From: a virus
Direction: 5' to 3' (one strand)
DNA length: 31,065 nucleotides
IMG/VR virus record: IMGVR_UViG_3300008262_004700
Location: 1-31,065 of that record
Position 1 is the stretch's first letter; each line of letters opens with the position of its first letter. The notes under the pieces are model-generated. The model worked only from the letters and a program-made list of their open reading frames with translations. It was not told where the DNA came from and ran no database searches. Below are positions 1,872-28,501 of the stretch, piece by piece. The translations under genes were made by a program, and so were the position numbers.

Positions 1872-4800
1872 TATGACCTAACGCCAAATCCTCGCAGCTG
1901 ACTTGCCTGCGCTGCTGAGACCCTATCAGCAAGCGCCCGAATGTCGGCGTCGCTACGTACGACAGGGTTGTTGATTGTCACCGAAGCATTAACTGAAGAT
2001 CCGCCGCCTCCGGCCATGACCCCTACTCCGTTAGGAACAACTATACCACCCGAGCGACCAACGAACAGCGTCTCCGGGCCGTTCTCACCAACTGTATACA
2101 TTCCGCCGGGAAGCACTGGACCGCCTTTTGCAAGACCCTTGGCCTTGAGCATTGCTCCTGCTGACGTGAACAGCGAAAGAGCTTCGGCATCTGACTTAGT
2201 TGTAGGGGCAGCAATCCTCTGCAGAGCGGTTAGCTTATCGAGGAAGTCTGTCTTGAACTTTCCCTTCCATGCGTTCATAGAGGCGGTCTTCTCTGCACTG
2301 GTGTCTCCAGCAAACATGCTTGCAACTGCCCTTTCGTACCGAAGCACGATTGCCCGAATCCATCCGCCTACTTTATTCCTGAACACATTGATCGCATCGC
2401 CAGCAAGTGGCGTACCGGGGTCGGTTCCGCCGCCACCGCCGCCACCACCACCGCCGCCGCCGCCGCCACCGCCGCCACCACCGCCGCCGCCGCCACCACC
2501 GCCGCCTGTCGACCAGCCCGGGATTGCTCCAAACTGAGCGATGATGCGCCTGAGGTCCGCGGCTTCTGCAATGAGCACTGCCTTCGTCCTGGCGAGACCG
2601 GCAGCGAACGTTTCTCCGATCGACATACCAAGCTGCTCATATGGGGCGATAAGACTGCCCCACTCGTCCTGGATACCCTGCAGCACGTCAGCGACACTGG
2701 CCTTGCCATCCTTAAGCTGCTGTACAAGATCAGCAATGCGCTCCTTAAGCTTGTCGACGGCAGCGTCGTATGCAGCCTTCTCCGCGTCCATGATGAGGCG
2801 GTACTTTTCTTCGATCGCCTTAATATCTTCTTTTGTTGAGTCAATGATTGCTTGAGACTGCTCGATGAGCGCATCCTCTTGATTCCTTAGGATGAACTCG
2901 GCCAGGTCTGCCTGGGCCTCAGTGATATCCTTCGATGCCGCTAGAGCGTCAGCGCCAGCCTTGAACGCCTCGAGCTGGGCGAGGTTGATCTTGTCGCGGA
3001 GGTCTCGTTCCTTGTCGGCCTTGTCTCGCGCCTTTCTTCGGGCACGGATCTCATCGATCTTTGCCTGCTCGGCAGCAATGACTTCTTCCTTGGCTGCAAT
3101 TTCAGCATCGCGCTGCTTCTCTATGTCATCGAGGCGTCGCTGATGAAGATCCTTAAGGGCCTCTAGCATTGCCTTTTCGTACTTGGATACAGCGGCAAGG
3201 AATTCGTTGAGCTCCTGCTGCTTGGTCTTTCCGCCACCGCCACCACCGGTCTCGGTCCCGCCTCCAGTCGTAATAAGTGCACCCTCGCCCCATCCTGGTG
3301 GGAACTGGAGCTTTGTCTGTAGGTCGGCGCTCATCTCGATCTTTTGCTGCTCGTCTCCGAACAGCGTTCCGACGACGTCGCTGATTCCCTGTGTACTGAT
3401 CGCGTCACCAGAGATACCCATGGTGCTGTCTGCAGCGGTAATCTCTGGCATGGTCGGTCGCTCAACCTCGACCTTCATGGAGATCTTATCAAGTTTCCCA
3501 ATGTCGTCAAGGAATGGAATGGCGTTGTATGCGTCGATAAGAACGTTGATAATGTCGATTGCAAAATTTGCACCAGTTGCAATAGCATTTGCAATAAACC
3601 CTATGATCCCACCGATAAACCCAAAGATTCCAGCCGCGATATCACCAAGCCTTCCGATAACAAATCCAACAGCGTTGATTGCAAACTGAACCGGTGCCAG
3701 CGAGGCAACAAACCCAATAAATCCAGCAATCACCTTAACAATTGTCATAAAGAGCTGCAGAAGAACTCCAATGAACTGGAAGATTCCTACAATAATTGGG
3801 GTTATTGCCCTTACCACAAAGTCAATGATTGGTGCAACTACGCTGATGATTGCGGTTGCAATCCCAATAATTATTGTTGCAATACCATATACCGCCTCTA
3901 TCAGGAAGTTTATCGTCGGCATTGCAGCGTCGACTATTTGGAGAATTGAAGTAATAATGGTTCCGATTACTGGTGCTATTGCCTGAATTGCTGTAAACAC
4001 CAGGCCAATAATTGCTTGAATGTAAGGAATAATGTTTTGAATGATTCCAATAAACTGAACAACGATTGATTCTATTAGCGGATAAATTGACTGTATGAAT
4101 CCAGCAATCGAACCTATTATTTGAAGAATTACCGGAACTACCTGCCCAACAGCCTGAACAATAACCGGCACGATCGCGTTAATGAAACCAAAAATATTGT
4201 TGATTATCGGCTCAAGCGAAACAACAACGTTTTTAAACACTTCGAGAAGCGAAGTTCCGTTTGCCCTTAATACCTTGTCGATAATCCCAAGTGATGCAAC
4301 AACGATGCTCACCAAGGCAAGTATTGGGTTTCCCATTATCACCGCATGGAGAAGCTTAAACGCCAGGACAAGTCCAAGAACAGCTTGTACTGCCTTGTTC
4401 CCAAGAAGATCTACGGCAATTGGAATCCCCTGCTGGATAGCATCTACTGCTGCGGCTACTATATTTACGAGTGCGTTAAGCGGTGTTCCAGCTGTTACCG
4501 CCGAGTTGTAGATGGCTGCTCCAAATTGCGCAATCCCTTCAATGCCAGCAGGAATAATGTCAAAAATAAATTCCGTGATTGGCGTAATGACGTTATCGCG
4601 TATATCCTCTGCGAATTGCTTGGCCTCTGGCCTGGTTAGCATTGATGCAAAGTTGATTGCAACTTTTTCAAATGCGCTGTACAATGGTACGAATGCGTCT
4701 GCCGTGAGGGATCTTGTCATGTCTGAGATTGTTGTCTTTGCTCCTCGATATGTATTTGCCAAATCGGTCATTGCGCCGTCGAAGCGCTGCTGTAGATACG

Positions 4801-8664: not shown

Positions 8665-8928
8665 ATGCGGAACGAAGAGATCCGAGTCGTTATTAGGCAC
8701 GTCGGCGGCAAGACCCCATATTGGAAGGTTCTTGGTCCCGGCTGGATGGACCTGGCCGCTGACGCTCGCGGCGCCGTAGTGCTGGCGGCAAACAAGCTTG
8801 GTGAGGCCACGAACGACGATTCCTACCGAATGATTATCCTCTGGATGGACATCCCTGAAGGGTTTAGGGAACCGGATATTGAGGATTTCGAGGCTCAGGC
8901 CCCGTTTTCTAGCGACCTGGTCTGCTAG
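8665..8928 (+). CDS. Small hypothetical protein
   Basis: An 87-aa ORF; the start at 8665 (MRNEEIRVVIRHVGG) is chosen over a longer in-frame start because a TACAAT box lies 6 nt upstream and no Shine-Dalgarno precedes either start. The protein is a mixed alpha/beta polypeptide with GPGWMDLAADARGAVVLAAN. No family is recognised. It is transcribed divergently from the tail operon and its 3' end overlaps the convergent ParB-like gene by 20 bp. Confidence 0.6.
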   Translation: MRNEEIRVVIRHVGGKTPYWKVLGPGWMDLAADARGAVVLAANKLGEATNDDSYRMIILWMDIPEGFREPDIEDFEAQAPFSSDLVC

Positions 8929-9433
8929 GCGTAAACTCGAAGCTGCACTGTGGGCAGCGTACAACTCGGTCCTTCTTCTCCGGATCTGCCTCCACCTCGA
9001 GGTCCATCGGCTCGTTTGCTCGCTTAATGATGTCCTCAATGTCGTCGTCGTCGTACCCCAGTGCGGCAACGTTGACCTTTTCGTCCGTGAGGTCTTTAAT
9101 CAAGCTCAGTAGGACGTCGTCGTTGTAGCTTCCAAGGTCCGAAACGCGGTTGTCCGCTAGCATGATCTTCTTTGCCTTGACGTCATCGACATCTACCCAG
9201 ATCACCGGCACCTGTGGCATCTTGAGCCAGGTCGCCGCATGAAGCCTATGGTTCCCGACCAGCACGTGCCTAGTGGACTTCTGGGCAATCAGGGCGCCAA
9301 AGAACCCGTTGGTTCTCATGCTGTTAATAATGGCCCCAATATCGCCTACCCGCGGGTTCTCCGGGTGCGGGTCGATGGAGTCTGTATCGACCATTTCTAT
9401 TGACTCTTGAAGGATCTTAATGTCTTCTGGCAT
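8909..9433 (-). CDS. ParB-like N-terminal domain protein
   Basis: A 174-aa protein with the ParB/Srx N-terminal fold signature. DPHPENPRVGD is at 21-31, VGNHRLHAA at 59-67 (counterpart of the ParB GxHR box) and ADNRVSDLG at 93-101. It ends with CPQCSFEF, a single visible CxxC pair. Canonical ParB proteins bind CTP and parS, but phages carry many short ParB-like proteins with nuclease, ATPase or unknown roles. It lies divergent from the terminase small subunit. TATGAT 6 nt before the ATG suggests a leaderless transcript. It is one of three ParB-domain genes in this window. Confidence 0.85.
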   Translation of the reverse strand: MPEDIKILQESIEMVDTDSIDPHPENPRVGDIGAIINSMRTNGFFGALIAQKSTRHVLVGNHRLHAATWLKMPQVPVIWVDVDDVKAKKIMLADNRVSDLGSYNDDVLLSLIKDLTDEKVNVAALGYDDDDIEDIIKRANEPMDLEVEADPEKKDRVVRCPQCSFEFTPSRPGR

Positions 9434-12023: not shown

Positions 12024-12998
12024 TCAGGAACTCATGACGGATTCGAGCGAAGCTTTCTTGGCTCGCGCTGCGTACCCGTCGAACAAAATTGACTCAGCCT
12101 TTGCATCGGAGACAGAACTTGTCTTGCCGCCGCGGTAGGCCATCCCATGGTCAATGAACTCGGTAATCGCGTTCCATAGTCCCCACTTCGTCATGCGGAC
12201 AGACTCAATGTTCTGCGACTCAAGCCAATTGCCCATAACTTTCTGGGCGTTAATGGACATCTCTGCTCCACCGCGCTTCTCATCCTCGGTAAGGGGGAAA
12301 ACGCTCTTAACCATCGCCAACCCCTCTGGGATCGTGATTACGGTGTGCGCCATATTGTTTGCCATGACCTTGAAGTCATCCATGTAGGACGTCGTGAGCT
12401 TAAGAATTTCACGAGCCTGATTGATTCTTCCCGCGATGTTTTCGGTGTGGCGAATAGAGAACTTGTCTTTGGCGCCGCGGAACGCAGCGTTAAGGGTGTT
12501 CATGCAGACGACTCGCACCGGCGTGATGCAGGCCTTGAAGGCGTGGATTCCGTCGTGGCCGTTCGAAACAAGAAGGTATGTCTTCACCTTGCTGACGTCT
12601 CCGTCAACGACGAAGTCGTGAGGAAGCTCAATTGATGAGAAGATAATCTCCCCGTTGCGAAGAGATCCTGCTGTCTCAAATCGCCCGCCGACGCCACACA
12701 GGTCCTCAGCGAACTCAAAGATTCGATCGTTCTGTACGACCTTATATCGCTGGCTAACAATTCCCAGCACCTTGTGGTCAGAATCGCGAACGTTTGCCAC
12801 CCTGTCTGGGATATGCGCCCCGATCCCGTCAACAACGATCGGCATCTGGTTTACCTTCCATCCAAGCTTAGCTGCCACAATCATCTGGTCAGCCTTTGCC
12901 AGGTCGGCAAGATTTTCAATTAAACCTGCAGTGGCTCCTGCGTGCCAGGGCAAACCCCGGTTTCCAACGAACGCCATACTTTCTACTTCATGGGCCAT
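12024..12998 (-). CDS. DUF932 / phage-plasmid-like protein (TIGR03299 type)
   Basis: A 324-aa protein matching the phage/plasmid DUF932 family by features I recognise: the N-terminal GLPWH and the segment VLGIVSQRYKVVQNDRIFEF. Others are TYLLVSNGHDGIHAFKACIT, PVRVVCMNTLNAA and the later HTENI plus helical repeat. The family is widespread in phages and plasmids and its biochemical role is not established. The ATG at 12998 has a near-perfect AAGGAGGTG, and a promoter-like TTGCAG-N17-TAGACT lies just upstream, so it probably starts its own transcript with the two small downstream genes. Confidence 0.88.
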   Translation of the reverse strand: MAHEVESMAFVGNRGLPWHAGATAGLIENLADLAKADQMIVAAKLGWKVNQMPIVVDGIGAHIPDRVANVRDSDHKVLGIVSQRYKVVQNDRIFEFAEDLCGVGGRFETAGSLRNGEIIFSSIELPHDFVVDGDVSKVKTYLLVSNGHDGIHAFKACITPVRVVCMNTLNAAFRGAKDKFSIRHTENIAGRINQAREILKLTTSYMDDFKVMANNMAHTVITIPEGLAMVKSVFPLTEDEKRGGAEMSINAQKVMGNWLESQNIESVRMTKWGLWNAITEFIDHGMAYRGGKTSSVSDAKAESILFDGYAARAKKASLESVMSS

Positions 12999-13273: not shown

Positions 13274-13403
13274 ACCGAATAGCCGCCTGGGACAGGGAGA
13301 ACAGAAGAAGTCCAGCGCCAATAAACTTATTTAGCTCGAAGACTCCGTAAAGCAAAAGGCCAGCGCCGATAAAGCCGGTAAGGTGTCCTACTGCCTTAAC
13401 CAT
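13254..13403 (-). CDS. Small two-helix membrane protein
   Basis: A 49-aa ORF with two short hydrophobic segments, GHLTGFIGAGLLLYGVF and NKFIGAGLLLFSLSQAAI, separated by ELN. The repeated FIGAGLLL suggests an internal duplication into a hairpin. Its ATG overlaps the stop of the IbrB-like gene as TAATG, the same coupling seen elsewhere in this operon, which supports it as real. A holin-like or membrane-anchor role is possible but unproven. Confidence 0.6.
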   Translation of the reverse strand: MVKAVGHLTGFIGAGLLLYGVFELNKFIGAGLLLFSLSQAAIRYVESQG

Positions 13404-13924
13404 TACTTATCCTCCTCTGGCGCCCACGCCTCGTTGAAGTCATCTCTGGCAAGGCGCTTAATGATGTCTCCTCGGTCAAGCAGCCGCTCGAACTCTTCGT
13501 TGTCCATTCCAAGGCGTCGCATAATCTCGGCCTTTGGAAGCTTCATGTCGTCGGCAAGCTCAGCGACAATGTCGGCCATTCGGACCACGCCGTGGCTACC
13601 GCGTGCGCGATTGTGTCGGATTGTCGCCATACGCTGCGTTGCGGCATCTACATCGATGAACACTACCGGAACGAGGAAGTCTGTCATTTCCCCAACTCGG
13701 GGGTCACCGGAGCATGTCCATCGGTGGAATCCGTCAACAATTTCCCCGCTTCGACGCGCCACAATCGGCTGTGTCCAGCCTGTCTCCATGATGCTGAGCT
13801 TTAGCAGCTCCAGCTCCGGTGGCGCTACGTGATTTGGGTTGTAGTCGTTTGCGCGAAGCGTATTGCGGTCGACCCACTCAACCTTCGCCAGCGGCTGCTT
13901 ATCTCGTCCTATTACCTTTTCCAT
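13403..13924 (-). CDS. IbrB-like ParB-domain protein
   Basis: A 173-aa protein with ParB-like boxes: DYNPN at 27-31, IVDGFHRW at 62-69 and IRHNRARG at 102-109. The central Gly-Phe-His-Arg replaces the usual GEHR. It lies one base downstream of a DUF3440 PP-loop gene. That pairing (DUF3440 plus ParB-like) is the one described for IbrA/IbrB, reported as co-activators of prophage gene expression in Escherichia coli. The C-terminal ~60 residues are helical and acidic. A partner role with the PP-loop enzyme is inferred from adjacency. Confidence 0.82.
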   Translation of the reverse strand: MEKVIGRDKQPLAKVEWVDRNTLRANDYNPNHVAPPELELLKLSIMETGWTQPIVARRSGEIVDGFHRWTCSGDPRVGEMTDFLVPVVFIDVDAATQRMATIRHNRARGSHGVVRMADIVAELADDMKLPKAEIMRRLGMDNEEFERLLDRGDIIKRLARDDFNEAWAPEEDK

Positions 13925-13925
13925 A

Positions 13926-15323
13926 CTATCCCCTCTTTACTCTCCAGGTTGAAAGCTCTCCGCTCTCAGCAAGCATACGATACTCGATCTTGTAGTTCTC
14001 TACCATCGCCTTTTCTCGCTCGGTAGTCTTCGGCGCTGGTGGCTCCTTTCGGTTCTTGAAATCGCCACGCATCGCCACGCTCATAAGGAAGCCCCAACTT
14101 ATGCCGGTGAGTGGGTGTGGGGCATTTGGCAGGATTGGATCGTTGGTCTTGGCGTGGTGCCACCCGATCCACCTTCGAATCCGCTTCGCAATAACCTTCT
14201 GATCTTCCGGCCGGAACTTTTTAATGTAGTGCACCATATATTGCTCCCAGCTCAAGTCAATAGGCTTTGGCGGGATTCCGACGCCCCAGAGTTCGGTGTG
14301 TGCATACATTGCGCCAGTATTCGCACCCGGAACACGGTGCGCCATGCGGTCCCAGACCTCTGGTGCTACCTTCGAGAACATCCAAAGAGAGATCATTGGC
14401 TCCTCGCCGTAAGGGGGGCCAACTCGAACCTTGTTAACGGGGATCTTCGCCATGACCATATGCCGGTACAGCTGGTTGTAGTCCCAGTCAAACTTCCTAA
14501 CTGCGGTCCAGATGTCGTTATTCGTCCAGTCATAAACCGGGTATCCCTTGAAGATCCTTGGCGTGTACTTTTGCGATTTAAGCTTAACTCCGTGCTTGTC
14601 AATTCCGTCGGTAACAATGTAATTTGCCTTAGACCCGGGGCGCTTTGACACAAGCCTCATTCTTCGGATGCTCTCCTGCGCGCGCAGTCCGATAAGCATG
14701 ATCGTCTTCTTTCCAGTCCCAGCAGGGTCGGCCATGATGTCGTTGATGTCCGGGTACATCACACGAAGCTCTGGGTCGGCGTGAGCCCTCTCCATCCATT
14801 CTTTTAGTACTGGCTGTTCGTCAATCCTTGCGTTTGCCTCTGGTGGCATTGGTCGCACCCACTTATCCTGCTCTTCTCGTGCCCACGGGAACCACCACGG
14901 GTTCTCCCTCGAGCATGCGTTTCGGTGCCGAATCGGCAAGCAGTACCAATCAAGCTGAACGCCTGGAAGCTGGGAAACTCTTCGAACGTACTCCTCTGTC
15001 TGGTACGGGATAGCCTCCTCGTCGATAAAGATGACGCGCAGCGGAAGCCTGTTTAGCTCTTTTGCAACCTCATAGGCGACCATCATGGTCGCAGTGCTAT
15101 CTTTTCCGCCGCTGAAGGATACGACTACCTCTTCGAAGTTCGCGAAGATAAACCTCATCCTGTCTAGGGCTGCCTCCCAAACATTCTTTCCAATCCCAAC
15201 ACGACGACGGACGCTGTTAGGCGCGTACTCACGCTGGTCCTTAGTTCCGTGCTTGGCCGAGGCCGCACTCTCCCAGAACGTGTCTGGGTTAATGTCGAAG
15301 TGGCTCTTCTGCTCTTCTGTCAT
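13926..15323 (-). CDS. IbrA-like DUF3440 / PAPS-reductase-family PP-loop protein
   Basis: A 465-aa protein. NVWEAALDRMRFIFANFEEV leads into VVVSFSGGKDSTATM, with the PP-loop SGGKDST at 71-77. These enzymes bind ATP in a HUP fold and either adenylate a substrate or reduce PAPS. Later segments typical of the IbrA/DUF3440 group are EEAIPYQTEEYVRRV, GLRAQESIRRMR, YPVYDWTNNDIW and LYRHMVMAKIPV. The start overlaps the upstream PP-loop gene as ATGA. The substrate is unknown; no ordinary sulfate-assimilation gene is nearby, so a biosynthetic or modification role is preferred. Confidence 0.88.
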   Translation of the reverse strand: MTEEQKSHFDINPDTFWESAASAKHGTKDQREYAPNSVRRRVGIGKNVWEAALDRMRFIFANFEEVVVSFSGGKDSTATMMVAYEVAKELNRLPLRVIFIDEEAIPYQTEEYVRRVSQLPGVQLDWYCLPIRHRNACSRENPWWFPWAREEQDKWVRPMPPEANARIDEQPVLKEWMERAHADPELRVMYPDINDIMADPAGTGKKTIMLIGLRAQESIRRMRLVSKRPGSKANYIVTDGIDKHGVKLKSQKYTPRIFKGYPVYDWTNNDIWTAVRKFDWDYNQLYRHMVMAKIPVNKVRVGPPYGEEPMISLWMFSKVAPEVWDRMAHRVPGANTGAMYAHTELWGVGIPPKPIDLSWEQYMVHYIKKFRPEDQKVIAKRIRRWIGWHHAKTNDPILPNAPHPLTGISWGFLMSVAMRGDFKNRKEPPAPKTTEREKAMVENYKIEYRMLAESGELSTWRVKRG

Positions 15324-16168
15324 GCGCTCATAATCTCATCAAATTCCGGAATGCTCTTAGGGGCAACCCGTTCAATCCAATCCCTAAATTCTACAATGGT
15401 TGGGAAGAGAGTTATATCAGACCTTCCAACCAGGTCAGCCAGGTCAACCCAATTGCTATTTGAGCCGATAATGAATCCGTACTGGCCTTTATAGGTAGGG
15501 GCAAGATTGAGATCAAAGTACTTGATGGCGGCAAGTATCTCCTCGTGCCACCAGTCATAAATTGGGGCAAGGCTCACCGTTCCCCTGCCGCGTGGGGCCT
15601 GCACGCCGCCCAGGTTCTTGTCGTGCTTTCCGCAGTGGTTCTGGTCGTCCATTCGCCTCCCCGTGATGTGCAGCGCCGACCTGTTCTTATAGCACCATTC
15701 CCTCTGGGCTGGCGCGTGAAAGTTTGCAAGTTTTGCCGGAGGGTTCTGCCCCCAAACGCTGTTTTTATTCTTAATGACCCAGGAGTTATCCGGCCCTATC
15801 TCAATTATCTCGATTTTTTCTGGCTTATGGTTGGCGACGTACTCGTGCATCTCCGCAACCTTAGCGCAACGGTATAGCGCGGCAACACCGGCGTCGTAGC
15901 CGACGATCCGAAGGACTCGCTCTGCGACAAGAGCGTCTTTGCCACCGCTCCATCCGACTGTTACCTTCCCTGGATACTTCTGCTTAGCCAGCTCAATTCT
16001 TCGGGTTGCTTCGTCGATCCTGTCTTCGAGCCACGACGTAGGGACGTACTTCTCGATTTCGTCATATGCTCGCCAGATTGTTACGTCGTCCCACTTCTTC
16101 CCGCGGCGTGTATTCGTAGCAATTGTGCCATTGTTGGTGATATCAAGCCCCGGGTACCTGCGCCTCAT
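15320..16168 (-). CDS. PP-loop / PAPS reductase-like enzyme
   Basis: A 282-aa protein with KVTVGWSGGKDALVAERVL; the PP-loop SGGKDA is at 74-79. RCAKVAEMHEYV and an acidic strand follow, as in PAPS-reductase/ATP-sulfurylase-like HUP enzymes. Cys and His residues around REWCYKNRS and NHCGKHD could bind metal or act in sulfur transfer. It is clearly different in length and sequence from the neighbouring IbrA-like protein, so the operon encodes two distinct PP-loop enzymes. Both junctions overlap as ATGA. Confidence 0.82.
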   Translation of the reverse strand: MRRRYPGLDITNNGTIATNTRRGKKWDDVTIWRAYDEIEKYVPTSWLEDRIDEATRRIELAKQKYPGKVTVGWSGGKDALVAERVLRIVGYDAGVAALYRCAKVAEMHEYVANHKPEKIEIIEIGPDNSWVIKNKNSVWGQNPPAKLANFHAPAQREWCYKNRSALHITGRRMDDQNHCGKHDKNLGGVQAPRGRGTVSLAPIYDWWHEEILAAIKYFDLNLAPTYKGQYGFIIGSNSNWVDLADLVGRSDITLFPTIVEFRDWIERVAPKSIPEFDEIMSA

Positions 16169-17514
16169 CGTGCGTACCTCTCGTGTACTGCCTTGACGTG
16201 CTGGTACTCTCGGATTGCGTCGGCCCCCATGTCGGCACCGTTTCCGCTCAATCCTCTTCCTGGATGCGGTATCTCTGGGGTTTGGGCAAGGTGGCAGTTG
16301 ACCCAGACCTCACCTACATCCATCGCCTGCTCGCATACCTTGATGTTTGTCAGATCGGAACCCCATACCGAACCAGAAAGCCCGGGGCCAAACATATTCG
16401 CCATCTCAACAGCCTGTCGAAGATCGGATGCAAGCTGAACTGTCAAGACCGGTCCGAATACTTCGCAGGAAACAACGTCATCCATTGGTGATGGGTTAAT
16501 CACAAGGGCTGGCTTTACCCAATATCCCCAATCTTCCTTACCTGCTTCTTGGGTCGTGGTACCTCGGACTACGTCACCACTGGTCTCGGAGATGAACGCT
16601 TCAATCTTCTCCGCCTGCTCGATGCTGATTGACGGCATGTTTGTTGGCACTGACGAAAATTCCTCGGTGAGCTCCCTGGCCGCCCTTTCGAAGGCGGCTT
16701 TGCCAACAGCGATAACACGTGCTGGCGCTGCGCAGGATTGACCGTTGTTGTAGAGCGCGGCTGCGGCGATGTCTTTTGCCGCTCGCCCTGGCGCGTCCTC
16801 AAAGAAAATTACAGGGCCGTTTCCACCTAGCTCTAGAGATGTCTTTGCTGGAAATGCCTCCCTTGAGATCTCCCTGCCAACTGAGGTTGACCCGGTGAAG
16901 GCGATGCAGTCAAAGTTTGCTGATGTCATTGCCTTGCCAGTATCCTCCCCGCCAAGTACTGTGCACACAACGCCGGATGGAAGGTTCTCCAGGCAGATGT
17001 CTTGCAGGAGTACGGCCGAGTATGGGGTTTGCTCTGCTGGCTTTACTACTGCTGTTGACCCGGAGGCAAGAATCGCGCCAATTCTCCAGGCCCAGATCAC
17101 TGTTGGGTAATTCCAAGGGAGAATGACGCCGACAACTCCAACTGGCTCTCTTGTCACATACGAGAATGTATTTTCCATATAGCCGCCTGGGATTGTGGAC
17201 GTTTGCGTTCGTGCTGCGCCAGCAAAAAAACGGATAGTGTCGATTGCGTGATTTATTTCACTAAGGGCCTGCGACCTTGGCTTTCCGGTGTTCATCGACT
17301 CGAACATGCAGAGCTCATCGATCTTTCGCTCCATGCCGTCAGCTAGCTGGAACATGAACTTCGATCGCTCAGCGTGGGTCAAATTAGCCCAGCTCGGAAG
17401 GGCCGTCCGCGCAGAAGAAAGCGCCTCCATTACCGTCTTTGCGGTGGCAGACTCAAACTTGGCCCTTGACTCCCCGGTCCTGGGGTCAAACGTTAGAATA
17501 TCGAGGCTATCCAT
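16165..17514 (-). CDS. NAD(P)-dependent aldehyde dehydrogenase
   Basis: A 449-aa protein starting MDSLDILTF at 17514, chosen because GGAGG lies six bases upstream and the ATG overlaps the preceding stop. Catalytic features are intact: GVVGVILPWNYP with the oxyanion Asn135, VVKPAEQTP, FTGSTSVG, general base Glu228 in LELGG, and nucleophile Cys261 in NNGQSCAAPAR. The cofactor-end motif EVFGPVL and a terminal SGNGADMG complete it. It is about 40 residues shorter than many ALDHs. ALDHs oxidise aldehydes to carboxylates. This is rarely seen in phages; next to an amidoligase it could supply the acid to be amidated. Confidence 0.92.
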   Translation of the reverse strand: MDSLDILTFDPRTGESRAKFESATAKTVMEALSSARTALPSWANLTHAERSKFMFQLADGMERKIDELCMFESMNTGKPRSQALSEINHAIDTIRFFAGAARTQTSTIPGGYMENTFSYVTREPVGVVGVILPWNYPTVIWAWRIGAILASGSTAVVKPAEQTPYSAVLLQDICLENLPSGVVCTVLGGEDTGKAMTSANFDCIAFTGSTSVGREISREAFPAKTSLELGGNGPVIFFEDAPGRAAKDIAAAALYNNGQSCAAPARVIAVGKAAFERAARELTEEFSSVPTNMPSISIEQAEKIEAFISETSGDVVRGTTTQEAGKEDWGYWVKPALVINPSPMDDVVSCEVFGPVLTVQLASDLRQAVEMANMFGPGLSGSVWGSDLTNIKVCEQAMDVGEVWVNCHLAQTPEIPHPGRGLSGNGADMGADAIREYQHVKAVHERYAR

Positions 17515-18286
17515 TGAGTTCCTCCGGGTCGACGACCTCGCCAACTCCAAGGGATTCGTACATCTTTCGCACGTCAAGATCGTCGTCTATTGCCATGTCT
17601 AGGATGTAGTTGTCCTCGAGAAGCTTGTTGACCCTCCAGCGCTTTGACTCCACATATGCACCGGCAGGAAGGTCGCTCATAAACAGCTCGTCATATTTAA
17701 GGCCAGCCTTCTTTAGGCTTTCCACAGTGCGCTCCCTGGACTCTTCGGCCCTTGCCGTCAGAACAATAACTGACCTACCCTTCCGATTTTCCTGGACCCA
17801 GTCTAGTGTTGACTGAATGGTATTTCCCTCGCTATCGATGAGTGTCTCGTCGATGTCGACAATGATCGCCCTCTTCGAAAGCTTGCCAGGCATTCCTCGC
17901 TTGAGAATCATTCGGAACCAGGTACCTTCGTCTCTCTGGGCGACAATACCTGCATTGACAAATCCAAACTTTTCGTATATATCAGCAGCCCTAGTTATTG
18001 TCTTGACGTCTCGATCCCCGACAAGCTTCAGCCGGTGCTCGACAAGCATCTTCCCGTATCCCTTGCCGCGATAATCCGGCATTGTCCAAAGAGAGCCCAG
18101 CGTGCACGCGCCGCGTGGCGGGATGTCAAGTCGCCCAAATGAGACCAGGTTCTCGTCTACGTACAGGCCCCACCACGTCGTTGACGGCTCTGCTGCCCTT
18201 TCAAATCCGTAGGTCATGTAGTTCGGACCGTAGTTGCGCAGGGCAAATGGGATTCTCCAGTTAATCTCCTTAATCTCTATCGCCAT
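17507..18286 (-). CDS. GNAT acetyltransferase-HAD phosphatase fusion
   Basis: A 259-aa two-domain protein. Residues 1-~130 form a GNAT acyltransferase with SLWTMPDYRGKGYGKMLVEH, where RGKGYG at 73-78 is the acyl-CoA pyrophosphate loop, then AADIYEKFGFV. Residues ~138-259 form a HAD hydrolase: DIDET at 144-148, LTAR at 176-179, a Lys near 215 and the acidic DDD at 234-236. All four HAD motifs are present. The ATG at 18286 follows GGGAGG and overlaps the amidoligase stop; the longer in-frame extension upstream lacks any domain character. The fusion suggests consecutive acylation and dephosphorylation in one pathway. Confidence 0.9.
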   Translation of the reverse strand: MAIEIKEINWRIPFALRNYGPNYMTYGFERAAEPSTTWWGLYVDENLVSFGRLDIPPRGACTLGSLWTMPDYRGKGYGKMLVEHRLKLVGDRDVKTITRAADIYEKFGFVNAGIVAQRDEGTWFRMILKRGMPGKLSKRAIIVDIDETLIDSEGNTIQSTLDWVQENRKGRSVIVLTARAEESRERTVESLKKAGLKYDELFMSDLPAGAYVESKRWRVNKLLEDNYILDMAIDDDLDVRKMYESLGVGEVVDPEELNG

Positions 18287-19167
18287 TTTGCCTCCCTTCC
18301 CCTGAGCGCTACTGCGTGATCTCCCGTTGCATTCAAAAGATAATCTTCTCGATATGCCCTCTCCAGCTTGGCGTCGATGTATAGCTGGTCTGGAAGGTCG
18401 TAGTACTGATCGCTCATAAACTCTAGCGGATGACGCTGCTCGCCAAGTGCCTCTTGGACAAACGCGGCACACCAGTCTATGGCGTCTCGAATCTGATCGG
18501 TGTTTGTCGTGGATGAGAACTGACGGAATTCGATGGTTCCATTCTTCTCGATGCTCGATAGATTGATAAACGATCGGTCCGTTTCATCAAATTCATCCTG
18601 GACAGGTCGGATGATGTCGAAGAACTCGTCGGTTGTCGAGGCTGATAGCGCCCGGCTAACCGTCTCCGGGGAGTAGACGTGGCCACGATACGGAACCGTA
18701 TACTTCCGGAAATACTCCAGGGCAAACTTATAGTCGTCCATTGACTCGTAGTGCTGGGGCTTCGGCTCTGCTAGCTTGAATGTCGACCAGAGGAGCTCGA
18801 CCTGGTACTTGGACACGTAGCTAATTAGCAACTTCATTGCCCCAAGGTCTTCCTTTACCCCGTCGTACCCGATGTGCACGTGCATAGCGGTCTTAAAGTT
18901 TACGGTTGGAGGGCACCCGGCATCGGTAAACAGCTTGATTAGCGAACTCGCAATCTCTACCTGGCGATCGCTGCTGTCACTTGGAACGGTATTAATTTCC
19001 CCGCCTTTACCGCCCCTGTCGCCGAGCTGATCGTTCGATGTTCCGTCGCTATTCACGATCGTATCTTCAAACAGGTTCCACGAGGCAAGGTCACTCGGCA
19101 GCTCTATCGAGCGCGTTGTGTCAGCCCATTCAAGCTCGAGTCCGTATGTGAGCCCTGCCACAGGCAT
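18277..19167 (-). CDS. Putative amidoligase (glutamine-synthetase-like fold)
   Basis: A 296-aa protein with the signature pieces of the amidoligase_2 family: YGLELEW at 8-14 (metal/ATP-binding acidic pair), GGEINTVP at 55-62, MHVHIG at 95-100 and FINLSSIEKNGTIEFRQFSS at 200-219. These enzymes use ATP to join a carboxylate to an amine, making amides or peptide-like conjugates. The ATG overlaps the cupin stop as TAATG. Family members are known from phages, where they have been linked by comparative genomics to peptide or small-molecule tagging. The substrate here is unknown. Confidence 0.85.
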   Translation of the reverse strand: MPVAGLTYGLELEWADTTRSIELPSDLASWNLFEDTIVNSDGTSNDQLGDRGGKGGEINTVPSDSSDRQVEIASSLIKLFTDAGCPPTVNFKTAMHVHIGYDGVKEDLGAMKLLISYVSKYQVELLWSTFKLAEPKPQHYESMDDYKFALEYFRKYTVPYRGHVYSPETVSRALSASTTDEFFDIIRPVQDEFDETDRSFINLSSIEKNGTIEFRQFSSTTNTDQIRDAIDWCAAFVQEALGEQRHPLEFMSDQYYDLPDQLYIDAKLERAYREDYLLNATGDHAVALRGREAKWR

Positions 19168-19613
19168 TATTCGTCCTGCTTCTTCGCCTCGCTGTCATCG
19201 AATATCGGGGCCTCTACGGCATTTCCCTGCCAGTCAGTTGGCTTCATTCGATCAGGGGCGTCCACTGGCTTGTGCGGGCTGCCGATTGCAAGCAAGACGT
19301 GGCCTGCAGCACCTGCACCTACTGCGTGAGGAATCATGCCAGGGATCATATACATATCACCAGGTCGAACGTCAATCTTCTGGCCGTCAAACGAGATGGT
19401 TCCTTCGCCCTCAAGGCACATCAGGAGATGATCGCCCGGATGCGTGTGGATTGGGAAGGAGGCGTTAGACGGAACCCAGAGGATGTCTGCGCCGAGCTTC
19501 CCGTTTGTGGCAATATTCTGCCCGCGTGCGTCTGCGCCAACCACTGGGATGGCGGTATCGGGCTTAGCCAGCGCCAACTCCGCAACGTTGATAATCTTAA
19601 GTAGCTCAGCCAT
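19167..19613 (-). CDS. Cupin-domain protein
   Basis: A 148-aa single-domain cupin. Motif 1 is FPIHTHPGDHLLMCLEGEG with metal ligands His56, His58 and His62 or Glu68. Motif 2 is PGDMYMIPGMIPHAVGAG with His96. Cupins of this size can be isomerases, epimerases, dioxygenases or simple metal-binding sensors. The chosen start (MAELLKIINV) follows AGGAAA and overlaps the ParB-like stop by 8 nt. Placement between ParB and amidoligase genes suggests it works on an intermediate of the same pathway. Confidence 0.88.
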   Translation of the reverse strand: MAELLKIINVAELALAKPDTAIPVVGADARGQNIATNGKLGADILWVPSNASFPIHTHPGDHLLMCLEGEGTISFDGQKIDVRPGDMYMIPGMIPHAVGAGAAGHVLLAIGSPHKPVDAPDRMKPTDWQGNAVEAPIFDDSEAKKQDE

Positions 19614-20298
19614 TTTCCTCGCTCCAATCTTCCACAATCTTTGACAATGCCTCTCCTGGGTATTCCACTCGGAATTTGTCCCTGGCACTATCGATTCCTC
19701 TCATAAGCCTAATCATTTCCGTAACATTAAGCTTTTTAATTGCAACCGGCCTGCCACCGGCGGATTCGTAAGAAAGCCTGACCAGCCTCTCCCCGTCAAG
19801 CTCCGCCCCTTGGACCTGATCCGGTCCGTCGCCAAGAGACGAGATGAAATCATCCAGGAATGAACCAACCTCGTCTGCGAGGATCAGGCTCTCCCTGAGG
19901 ATGGCGTCTACGTCGGAGCTCATGAATCCCGTACCTTCGAGATCATTACCGGTCCGCATGTCGACAAGCAGCCTTGCCAGCGCCTTCGGGTCATACTCCG
20001 CCAGGTCGCTGGTGCGGTTATCCGCAATCAGGTATCCCTGCGCCTCTTTCTCCGACAGGTCGGTGAAGTGGCACGCAATCGTCTCCCACCCGAGGCTCTT
20101 CGCCGCATGCCAGGTGTGATTACCGGCGATGACAAACTTTGTGCCTTTCTGTGCGACGATAGGCTTTTGCTGCCCAAACTTCTTCAGGCTCTCGGCAATC
20201 TTCTCCACGTCGCCGCGCCGCGCGTTTTTTGGGTGCGGGGCTACGTCGAAAAGAGGGATGGCGAGATGGGAAATCCCCTGCGCAATATTTGATTCCAT
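19606..20298 (-). CDS. ParB-like domain protein, first gene of the modification-type operon
   Basis: A 230-aa protein. The ParB-like domain has PHPKNARRGD at 21-30, FVIAGNHTWHAAKSLG around 55-70 and YLIADNRTSDLAEYD near 89-103. The C-terminal ~100 residues (SFLDDFISSLGDG, VAIKKLNVTEMIRLMRG) are of a type I do not recognise. TAACAT six bases before the ATG and no Shine-Dalgarno make this the likely leaderless first gene of a long minus-strand transcript. It resembles the ParB-like protein at 8909 more than the IbrB-like one. Confidence 0.85.
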   Translation of the reverse strand: MESNIAQGISHLAIPLFDVAPHPKNARRGDVEKIAESLKKFGQQKPIVAQKGTKFVIAGNHTWHAAKSLGWETIACHFTDLSEKEAQGYLIADNRTSDLAEYDPKALARLLVDMRTGNDLEGTGFMSSDVDAILRESLILADEVGSFLDDFISSLGDGPDQVQGAELDGERLVRLSYESAGGRPVAIKKLNVTEMIRLMRGIDSARDKFRVEYPGEALSKIVEDWSEENG

Positions 20299-24933: not shown

Positions 24934-25629
24934 TCATGTGAGGTCTTCGCGTCGACCTTGAAAGTAGCCCTCCTTGCGTGAATACCCAAAGAAGTTTTTG
25001 GTTGTAATGGTCTCCTGCTCTTCATTCATCAGGTCAAGGTACTCGTCGACAATAGGCGCCATCTTCTCGAACACCTCTCGTCGAAGGATCATCGCCCCGG
25101 TTCCGACCCGATCGCAAACGACAAAGCCGAGCTCTGAAATTGCTGGGTCGATTTCCTTCGGCTCAGTCCCATGGAACTCAAATGCCGGTCGAGCCAGGAT
25201 CGAAGCAATGCTCTTCGGCTCAATACCGGGAGTGCCTTGGATGATGGAGAGCGCTCGTGCTGGGTCGAACGCCCTTCTGGAGTATGGAAGCGCCGTGAAC
25301 TCCAGCCCAGACAGCACGCAAACCATCACGTCTTGCGCGTTGACCCCAACGTCTGAGTCCAGGAACATGAAGTGCGTAGCGTCGCCCTTCAGAAACTCCA
25401 CAACCGACCGGTTCCGTGCAACAGGAAGGATCGAGATCCCGGGGACAACGCCCCAGGAGAACTTACCGCCGACCCGCTGGGCCTCAACTTGCATCTTTAG
25501 GATTGAGTTGACGTACCCGACGTTAAACGTGCCGGTCAAGGACGGCGTCCACACGGCGAGCTTAAACCTTGCCGCCTGCGGCTTTGGCTGTGGGTTTGAC
25601 TGCTGCTTGAATCGTTTCTTCTTTGACAT
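24934..25629 (-). CDS. GT-A-type glycosyltransferase-like protein, 3' end probably disrupted
   Basis: A 231-aa protein. After a Lys/Gln/Pro-rich head, PSLTGTFNVGYVNSILKM and FMFLDSDVGVNAQDV (DSD at 91-93) mark a GT-A nucleotide-sugar fold, and GTGAMILRREVFEKM follows. Such phage proteins usually continue past the G-x-GYFxGED region. Here the frame ends abruptly as QGRREDLT. In the next frame the DNA encodes DAKTSHEGSIQYGYDF and more, ending at 24855, which resembles the expected family tail. An internal deletion with frameshift (or an assembly error) is likely. The native protein may be inactive or truncated. Confidence 0.68.
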   Translation of the reverse strand: MSKKKRFKQQSNPQPKPQAARFKLAVWTPSLTGTFNVGYVNSILKMQVEAQRVGGKFSWGVVPGISILPVARNRSVVEFLKGDATHFMFLDSDVGVNAQDVMVCVLSGLEFTALPYSRRAFDPARALSIIQGTPGIEPKSIASILARPAFEFHGTEPKEIDPAISELGFVVCDRVGTGAMILRREVFEKMAPIVDEYLDLMNEEQETITTKNFFGYSRKEGYFQGRREDLT

Positions 25630-26766: not shown

Positions 26767-27402
26767 TCAAATGTCTACCAAGATATGGGTGTAGCCTTCC
26801 TGCTTTGTTACAGACTGCAGGGTATAGCTCATCGTCGTCAGGCCGTTTCTTAGGACCGCCTCTTTGGAGCCAAGTGCCTTGAAGTGGATATCGATGTTCT
26901 CCTTCGGCGGGTTATTGCCGTATGGGCGTTCGTGGTCCAGGCTAAGGAACCGCTGGTCATTTCGCCTGAAGACATCGATACCGGCAAGGTGTACTCGGTC
27001 GAGCAGCGCATCGTCCTCCAGACCCCACCCGTAGTAGTTTGCTGGGAACCCATTGCACTCTGCGAAGGAGCCCCGGTCGAACATCGTCACCCCGCCGAAG
27101 TATTGGAGGTAGGGCATCTTGTACTCGAACTGGCTTGCAGCCGTTGCGAGATGCGTGGCGCCGTTTTGCGGGGAGTAATCGACGTCCTCAGGAATCATGT
27201 CGACATCGTGAAATATGATATGTGAGTGTGAGGAAAAGATGAATCCGATGTTGCAGAGCGCTCCTCGGTTGAACGCCTTGTCGTTCCCCTGTTCGACTAT
27301 GAGGAGCTCCACGCCTGGAATTGCCTTGATGATCGCCGGAACGAACTGCTCAAGGTGGGCAGCCCGATCGCGGTACGGAACGACTACGGAAATATCATTC
27401 AT
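26767..27402 (-). CDS. Galactosyltransferase-like (GT7-type) glycosyltransferase
   Basis: A 211-aa GT-A enzyme. Key positions: MNDISVVVPYRDRAAHLEQF at the start, FHDVDM at 65-70 (DVD metal site), YFGGVTMFDRGSFAECNGF at 101-119 and GWGLEDDALLDR at 125-136. This is the beta-1,4-galactosyltransferase (GT7) pattern of GGV, NGF, and GWG-EDD. It may add a sugar to phage DNA, a virion protein or a host surface; the substrate is unknown. Its ATG overlaps the upstream stop as ATGA. Confidence 0.85.
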   Translation of the reverse strand: MNDISVVVPYRDRAAHLEQFVPAIIKAIPGVELLIVEQGNDKAFNRGALCNIGFIFSSHSHIIFHDVDMIPEDVDYSPQNGATHLATAASQFEYKMPYLQYFGGVTMFDRGSFAECNGFPANYYGWGLEDDALLDRVHLAGIDVFRRNDQRFLSLDHERPYGNNPPKENIDIHFKALGSKEAVLRNGLTTMSYTLQSVTKQEGYTHILVDI

Positions 27403-27555: not shown

Positions 27556-27795
27556 TCAGTCTTTGCTGCCGACAATGTTGACCTCGGCGCCCTCGACCAT
27601 GTGTCGGACAGCCTCAATGATCTGCTCATCGGTCATCGTGTGCTTCTCGTGCCCATCAGGAGGCAGAGCGGTTACCGACCCCTCAGATCCCAATATCAGT
27701 CGAAATCCTAACGTGAACTTCTGGCTCTCGGTAGTGAAGCTCTCCTCAGTAAGTCTCTCGTCAAGCTTCTCGTCGAGCGGTCTTAGGTCTTCCAC
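27556..27795 (-). CDS. Small hypothetical protein
   Basis: A 79-aa ORF with GTG start, AGGAGG seven bases upstream, overlapping the end of the 246-aa gene by 35 nt. The sequence (DEKLDERLTEESFTTESQKF, then MTDEQIIEAVRHMVEGAEV) is acidic and partly helical. Not recognised. Confidence 0.55.
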   Translation of the reverse strand: MEDLRPLDEKLDERLTEESFTTESQKFTLGFRLILGSEGSVTALPPDGHEKHTMTDEQIIEAVRHMVEGAEVNIVGSKD

Positions 27796-28501
27796 GGTGT
27801 ACCTCCTTTGCTATCGCCTTCACCGGATCAGGGTTGATCGGGCGTAGGAACTTCTTTTCAGCTTTCGCATCCTGCTCATCATAGCTCCAACTGTCCTCAT
27901 CGCCAAGCTTCCAGCGCCCCGCCTCAGCGGAGAACTCCTTGGTACTTACCTTGAAATCGGGCATCTTCGGGGTCTTGAACACCAGGGCCTCATCCTCCCA
28001 GAGAACTCGGTTGTTTGGCTGGGCTGAGTACTGCCCGTTGTCCAGGCGGATGAAGTTGTACGACTTATGCTCGGCTGGTAGTCGCGCCCAATTGGCGTCG
28101 ATCTCGTTTGGGTCAGAGTGGACCATGTCTACCGTGAAGAGGTAGTGTCCGTGGTGCCAGCCACCATCCTGTGTCCGGAACTTGCAGCGCATGTTCTTAA
28201 GGACTGCTTTCTCAATAACTGCCACCTGGGTTGAGTTGGCGTCCCAGAGTTGCAGGTCTCCAAGGGAAAGGTCAGGCTTCGGGGTCTCTGGTCGAGAGAC
28301 GAATGCGCTGATCGGAAGCTTGTCATAGAGCGCCCCGTACTCAGGGAGGAACGCCTCAATGTAGAGGGCACGATGGCGGATCGCCTTCACGGATACCCAG
28401 TAGGCAGGGGTGAACTCGCCGTGTCCGTCTTGCAGGTCACGCAGGTACTCCTTGCGGACGTAGCAGGAGATTGGTGGGATATTGGCTATTGGTTGAGGCA
28501 T
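27761..28501 (-). CDS. Hypothetical protein
   Basis: A 246-aa protein with a clear AAGGAG site. It begins MPQPIANIPPISCYVRKEYL. The sequence is hydrophilic, aromatic-rich and mostly beta/mixed, with GGWHHGHYLFTVDMVHSD and a basic tail. No family recognised. A TGG-TAGAAT extended -10 about 50 nt upstream may make it the promoter-proximal gene of the right-hand minus operon (28501 to ~21223). Confidence 0.7.
   Translation of the reverse strand: MPQPIANIPPISCYVRKEYLRDLQDGHGEFTPAYWVSVKAIRHRALYIEAFLPEYGALYDKLPISAFVSRPETPKPDLSLGDLQLWDANSTQVAVIEKAVLKNMRCKFRTQDGGWHHGHYLFTVDMVHSDPNEIDANWARLPAEHKSYNFIRLDNGQYSAQPNNRVLWEDEALVFKTPKMPDFKVSTKEFSAEAGRWKLGDEDSWSYDEQDAKAEKKFLRPINPDPVKAIAKEVHRGRPKTARREA

Follow-up and report, generated by a model that had tools for sequence, protein, structure and literature searches.

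Organization of the operon

For over twenty years, IbrA and IbrB have been labelled as regulators of virulence, as PAPS reductases or as partition proteins, without a mechanism. A phage locus in which this pair closes a biosynthetic operon raises the question of what chemistry the two proteins perform. The sequence analysed here (the window, meaning the whole 31 kb stretch of 31,065 nucleotides) is an IMG/VR record of a virus of bacteria. Eight genes lie on its minus strand from 20298 to 13403 in the order ParBx, cupin, amidoligase, GNAT-HAD, aldehyde dehydrogenase (ALDH), PP2, IbrA and IbrB, with IbrA and IbrB terminal. Their junctions are overlaps of 1 to 10 bases or one-base spacings, so that the run is gapless. 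The following features were assigned.

19606 to 20298, minus strand: ParBx, ParB/Srx-like protein, first gene of the operon (phrog_723, 5.5e-42; ParB_N, 1.8e-5)
19167 to 19613, minus strand: mono-cupin, Cupin_2 (PF07883, 8e-13); its ATG at 19613 overlaps the ParBx stop
18277 to 19167, minus strand: amidoligase, ATP-dependent COOH-NH2 ligase family (PF12224, 9e-8)
17507 to 18286, minus strand: GNAT acyltransferase fused to a HAD phosphatase (PF00583, 2e-11; PF03767, 7e-8; phrog_415, 4e-15); likely start 18286
16165 to 17514, minus strand: ALDH (PF00171, 2e-108); likely start 17514
15320 to 16168, minus strand: PP2, second PP-loop ATP-pyrophosphatase, 282 aa (phrog_2302/424, 2e-8 and 7e-8), with GWSGGKDA ... 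GRRMDDQN
13926 to 15323, minus strand: IbrA, PP-loop ATP-pyrophosphatase with DUF3440, 465 aa (PF01507, 2e-13; PF11922, 1.5e-10; above cut-off)
13403 to 13924, minus strand: IbrB, single-domain ParB/sulfiredoxin-fold protein, 173 aa (phrog_2159 ParB-like, 2.6e-61; ParB_N, 4.7e-5, below the Pfam cut-off)
8909 to 9433, minus strand: further ParB/Srx-like protein beside the terminase, outside the operon, membership uncertain (phrog_620, 1e-37)

The gene starts were placed at 20298 for ParBx, 19613 for the cupin, 19167 for the amidoligase, 18286 for GNAT-HAD, 17514 for ALDH, 16168 for PP2, 15323 for IbrA and 13924 for IbrB, and the more 5' starts given by the ORF finder are probably wrong. The NCBIfam model nearest to the ALDH was aminobutyraldehyde dehydrogenase, with a score under the model cut-off. 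A preliminary description of this DNA had singled out positions 13403-15323; it placed both genes correctly, but this range holds just the last two of the eight operon genes.

Single-protein scans of IMG/VR with PP2, IbrA and ALDH returned two near relatives only, one near-identical contig and one more distant sister contig, and wider relatives came from alignment scans. Against the sister contig, dS was 0.50 to 0.71 and dN 0 to 0.024, giving dN/dS of about 0.03 or less in all seven scorable operon genes (ALDH was left out owing to alignment gaps). IbrA showed two nonsynonymous differences (dS 0.557, dN 0.0018), IbrB no amino-acid change (dS 0.498, dN 0), and the cupin likewise none. Because dN is low relative to dS in this comparison of sequences, the cassette is very probably functional and under strong purifying selection.

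Some other features of the window were recorded. A DUF932/TIGR03299 phage-plasmid protein (212 bits) is encoded close downstream of IbrB at 12024-12998. A beta-4-galactosyltransferase-type enzyme (PF02709, 3.8e-21) is encoded at 26767-27402, and an unannotated phrog_1574 protein at 24934-25629 resembles a glycosyltransferase in appearance; in Microbacterium phage Dewdrop (locus L014), too, glycosyltransferase genes come before IbrA. The product of 27761-28501 matched phrog_3704 (5.9e-89), whose ferredoxin label is doubtful, with zero Pfam matches, and a 1448-aa tape-measure-like ORF contains a long glycine run at about 2400-2540.

Identity and conservation of IbrA and IbrB

The preliminary description had read the DUF3440 PP-loop protein and the adjacent ParB-domain protein as the IbrA/IbrB pairing, and the matches to PF01507 plus PF11922 and to phrog_2159, together with the adjacency of the genes, bear this out. 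E. coli IbrA/IbrB, from the ECOR-9 genetic island, and YbdN/YbdM of strain K-12 are likewise adjacent DUF3440 PP-loop and single-domain ParB genes. The K-12 proteins are 25% (IbrA) and 40% (IbrB) identical to those of the window over most of their length, and they share the same invariant motifs.

In a collection of 50,697 phage records, IbrA-like proteins were found in 215 and IbrB-like proteins in 224, with nearly identical organism tallies. The pairing is not a matter of chance, since both the counts and the tallies agree so closely. An independent IMG/VR scan with an IbrB profile found IbrA in 74 of the 80 best IbrB loci, and most of the others were cut by a contig end. The choice of the best 80 in each such scan favours close relatives, and cluster counts are given where computed. 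With these loci, the roughly 215 phage records and E. coli ybdN-ybdM, the clustering expected of the two genes was found well outside the window.

Alignment of 30 IbrA relatives gave 20 invariant residues, which include five of the six SGGKDS positions, DxE, W147, R157, GxRxxE...R, PxxDW, Y286 and R300. Among 25 IbrB relatives, 24 residues were invariant, including N26, N29-P30-N31, G49, P53, DGxHR and NRAxGxH. The loss of PP-loop or ParB pocket residues that the preliminary description had envisaged was not seen, as SGGKDS and DGFHR/NRA(R/K)GxH vary little or not at all among 20-30 diverged relatives. The DGFHR pocket of IbrB belongs to the DGxHR kind known from DndB and GmrS (PMC4619093). 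Folds of this DGxHR/ParB-Srx type bind ATP, GTP or CTP, and which of them is not predictable from sequence (PMC12704722).

A ParABS partition reading of IbrB was rejected, with a TIGR00180 score of 17.8 bits against a cut-off of 58.45; no ParA was noticed among the annotated neighbour genes of the window operon. A match of IbrB to 8vd6 was disregarded, the target being a designed helical repeat.

Several variants of the locus were observed. Two or three tandem IbrA copies occur with a single IbrB, together with a cupin, PP2 and a glutamine amidotransferase, in L277 and L173/L280. L080 carries at 3353-3883 an apparent chimera of the N-terminal half of IbrB and C-terminal IbrA sequence, as from an internal deletion, and its PP2 lies 4 kb off among structural genes. 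An SNF2 or DEAD-type helicase gene adjoins IbrAB in L012, L013, L016, L017, L018, L024 and L025. In E. coli K-12, ybdN-ybdM lies between the methionine transaminase gene ybdL and citR, with the sulfenic-acid reductase gene dsbG beyond.

PP2, a recurrent partner of the pair

PP2 gave zero Pfam matches. Its AF2 model (pLDDT 73) had CysD as the best fold match (Z 16.1), and the sequence profile alone placed PAPS reductase first, weakly (2e-4). Alignment scans of 84,980 bacterial and archaeal species genomes and of IMG/VR, plus one phage record, yielded 89 PP2 loci. The order PP2-ParBx-IbrA-IbrB was found in 86 of them (16 clusters at 70% identity), a number that includes one locus cut before IbrB and one with fragmented frames; of the other three, one is rearranged, one carries a deletion and one meets a contig end. 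The loci lie mostly in prophages of Lachnospiraceae and other Clostridia. PP2 occupies other positions in phages found via IbrB or cupins, often as ParBx-bicupin-PP2-IbrA-IbrB, and in most relatives ParBx is encoded ahead of the supply genes, of PP2 or of IbrA. The window order of ParBx, supply genes, PP2, IbrA and IbrB agrees with this arrangement. PP2 had been described earlier as a second, unrelated-looking PP-loop enzyme that extends the pair; the PP-loop fold was confirmed, but the 86 ordered loci make it a recurrent partner and not an odd addition.

Small-molecule genes beside IbrA and IbrB

The earlier term "phage biosynthetic operon" proved right and general, since small-molecule genes adjoin IbrAB in many unrelated phages. 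A sodium-solute symporter gene (PF00474, 1.9e-23) overlaps or abuts the PP2 start, directly upstream, in 69 of 88 PP2 loci; the similarity of its product to PanF and PutP is far under cut-off. Eight further PP2 loci have at this place a second membrane-protein family with a weak profile relation to the symporter, and one has an ABC permease with an NMT1-type binding protein. Among the 80 best IbrB loci, 46 encode a bicupin (230-278 residues), usually between ParBx and IbrA. In the reverse test, IbrA or IbrB was present in 79 of the 80 best bicupin loci, and the remaining one ends at a contig edge. An ectoine-synthase (EctC) cupin stands between IbrA and IbrB in Pseudoalteromonas phage XCL1123 and is fused to IbrB in mycobacteriophages Nebkiss and Gaia. 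In the 50,697 phage records, EctC occurs five times, four of them at IbrAB, and the symporter has one strong match, in a record that carries IbrAB; the bicupin was found in none. A glutamine amidotransferase gene lies between PP2 and IbrA in L142, L172, L277 and L280. The linkage of a small-molecule module to IbrAB is well supported by these counts. Open-access PMC papers contained no report that we could find of IbrAB with a cupin, ectoine synthase or transporter.

The metabolic genes of the window could in principle have landed by accident next to an ordinary IbrAB pair. The amidoligase and GNAT-HAD genes were observed within an IbrAB operon in the phage group of the window only, and a search of the phage collection with the amidoligase gave a single relative. 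Phage Simon, which encodes an amidoligase relative, showed no IbrA or IbrB match within the surrounding 16.7 kb. We nevertheless consider such an accident improbable, given the low dN/dS of all seven scorable genes and the recurrence of the cupin and ALDH with IbrAB in other phages. The window cupin is 53-58% identical to cupins of the IbrAB loci L130 and L173, and IbrA or IbrB is present in 18 of 21 loci of window-related cupins, several with ALDH (with some near-identical contigs among them). The ALDH is 41-42% identical to those of the IbrAB loci L281 and L283.

Phage clusters of amidoligase, gamma-glutamyl cyclotransferase and glutamine amidotransferase were reportedly described by Iyer, Aravind and colleagues in 2009. 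The window shares with them an amidoligase in a phage operon, whereas here this enzyme is tied to IbrAB, cupin and ALDH. L186 (4373-11259) has an amidoligase-GGACT-GATase set, with the amidoligase just after IbrB, and between its bicupin and IbrA lies a gene whose product couples an AMP-binding enzyme with a methyltransferase domain.

The window differs from E. coli K-12, where the pair is alone, by the addition of PP2, ParBx and the biosynthetic cassette in one operon. No supply genes were found at the chromosomal ybdN-ybdM locus, and therefore the core has to be capable of working with a metabolite of the host.

Adenylation or sulphur chemistry

PAPS reductase, DndC and Fe-S thiolases rely on catalytic cysteines, while ATP sulfurylase and FAD synthase (FMN adenylyltransferase) transfer AMP from ATP. 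No invariant cysteine was found in 30 IbrA or 26 PP2 sequences, which argues against all three of the former; the commonest cysteine column is filled in 19 of 30 IbrA and 22 of 26 PP2 sequences, with Ile in the window PP2. Against PDB profiles, IbrA matched CysD (ATP sulfurylase) best, with ATP sulfurylase and FAD synthase ranking above CysH. The structure prediction of IbrA was poor (mean pLDDT 58), and its best fold match, FAD synthase, is for this reason taken as supportive only. The SGGKD motif and the PP-loop fold are present in both PP2 and IbrA, in the latter on a low-confidence model. Judged from sequence and models, IbrA and PP2 resemble adenylating enzymes such as ATP sulfurylase and FAD synthase more closely than PAPS reductase or DndC. 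The comparison with these last two enzymes, proposed in the preliminary description, thus turned out against both. CysD and FAD synthase have the PP-loop fold in common with IbrA and PP2, but IbrA has the extra DUF3440 domain and no CysN partner.

The common annotation would make the pair a sulphur-assimilation auxiliary module, a PAPS reductase with a ParB-like regulator. It draws on the PF01507 match of IbrA and on databases that annotate IbrA as PAPS reductase, and a phage gene with PF01507 has been read as a sulphur-assimilation gene in a published phage paper (PMC10434257). To this reading we assign the lowest probability of all, as SGGKDS is intact in IbrA where the aligned CysH chain has SSSFGIQ, cysteines and profile ranking both point elsewhere, and nothing evident connects the supply genes with sulphate. 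As a candidate, PAPS reductase (CysH) was dropped for IbrA, in which neither a degenerate PP-loop nor an invariant C-terminal catalytic Cys was found.

The pairing of PP-loop and ParB/Srx proteins also recalls DndC with DndB, and DndC profiles gave weak, local matches (8.7e-8). Phosphorothioation or thiolation, with sulphur entering DNA, is nevertheless very improbable, because no cysteine that could serve an Fe-S cluster or a persulphide is invariant and the supply genes belong to carbon and nitrogen metabolism. DndC was rejected as an assignment for IbrA and PP2 on motif and cysteine evidence, and the annotated genes of the operon and its neighbourhood included no dndA, dndD or dndE.

Proposed mechanism and target

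We consider it an even chance that IbrA and IbrB form the enzymatic core of a phage module for joining a small metabolite to a macromolecule, most probably the bases of phage DNA. From the observed gene content, order, co-occurrence, motif conservation, selection, PP2 fold class and lack of invariant cysteines, we infer both this target and the following chemical steps. A supply gene would provide the metabolite, either by import (sodium-solute symporter) or by synthesis, with the bicupin, the ectoine-synthase cupin or, in the window, cupin, ALDH, amidoligase and GNAT-HAD. IbrA, and PP2 where present, would then spend ATP, release pyrophosphate and adenylate the target or the metabolite. The AMP would be displaced by the amine of the metabolite, or by ammonia where a glutamine amidotransferase is present. 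The most apt precedent is TilS (tRNA-lysidine synthase), a PP-loop enzyme that adenylates cytosine and attaches lysine. Presentation of the target, with binding of NTP, DNA or both, would fall to IbrB and ParBx, by analogy with the role supposed for DndB and DpdB in other DNA-modification systems.

A DNA target is favoured by two ParB/Srx proteins per locus, by the terminase after IbrB in many relatives and by the presence of ParBc proteins alongside cytosine hypermodification genes of phages (PMC12783734). In 53 of 88 PP2 loci, the next gene after IbrB, at a median distance of 93 bases, belongs to a terminase small-subunit family, and terminases come after it in many IbrB loci as well. Counting against this reading are the window terminase, which lies on the opposite strand about 2 kb past the last gene of the operon, the K-12 pair without supply genes and the weak IbrA model. 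We found no report of a modified nucleoside in any IbrAB phage in the open-access literature.

The genes for import and synthesis might just as well be there for a free metabolite, for a protein target or for the fitness of the lysogen, and the comparative evidence on them also fits a small-molecule biosynthetic or ligase module whose free or protein-bound product acts as a regulator, an anti-defence compound or a benefit to the lysogen, with no modification of DNA. As cited in two papers (PMC6008420, PMC4541368), E. coli IbrAB reportedly activates prophage eib genes; a diffusible product could explain this reported activation, and prophage carriage and symporters suit lysogen metabolism. DNA modification could likewise cause the eib effect, however, and the two ParB/Srx proteins per locus and the place upstream of the terminase point to DNA. 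To a product that is not attached to DNA we give a smaller, still appreciable, probability.

Attachment to DNA would have parallels in known systems. DndB-DndC phosphorothioation and DpdA-DpdB deazaguanine modification also have a ParB/Srx-fold protein beside a nucleic-acid-modifying enzyme. IbrAB differs from both in lacking the invariant Cys and in having metabolite supply genes, with no DndA/D/E or TGT-like protein seen. In CmoX/CmoY carboxymethylcytosine hypermodification, an amine is joined to the base via adenylation with ParBc nearby, and the AMP-forming ligase acts after a Cx-SAM-dependent step (PMC12783734). IbrAB, in contrast, has PP-loop enzymes, and no Cx-SAM-type methyltransferase was seen in the window operon.

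Significance

Somewhat more tentatively, and at less than even chances, IbrAB may stand for a widespread and so far undescribed kind of phage hypermodification, whose PP-loop adenylating enzymes join differing metabolites to DNA; the nature of the side chain would depend on an exchangeable supply position. Clostridial prophages of the gut would fill this position with a phage-encoded symporter for import, marine phages with a dedicated bicupin, mycobacteriophages with an ectoine synthase fused to IbrB, and the phage of the window with the cupin-ALDH-amidoligase-GNAT-HAD pathway. Now that unrelated phages are seen to couple it with importers and enzymes of biosynthesis, the orphan pair becomes a testable chemical pathway, and E. 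coli K-12 itself is predicted to have the core chemistry in ybdN-ybdM. If the DNA target is true, this would amount to a new way of hypermodifying phage DNA, bearing on restriction escape and new nucleoside chemistry, and it could explain the reported effect of IbrAB on prophage gene expression.
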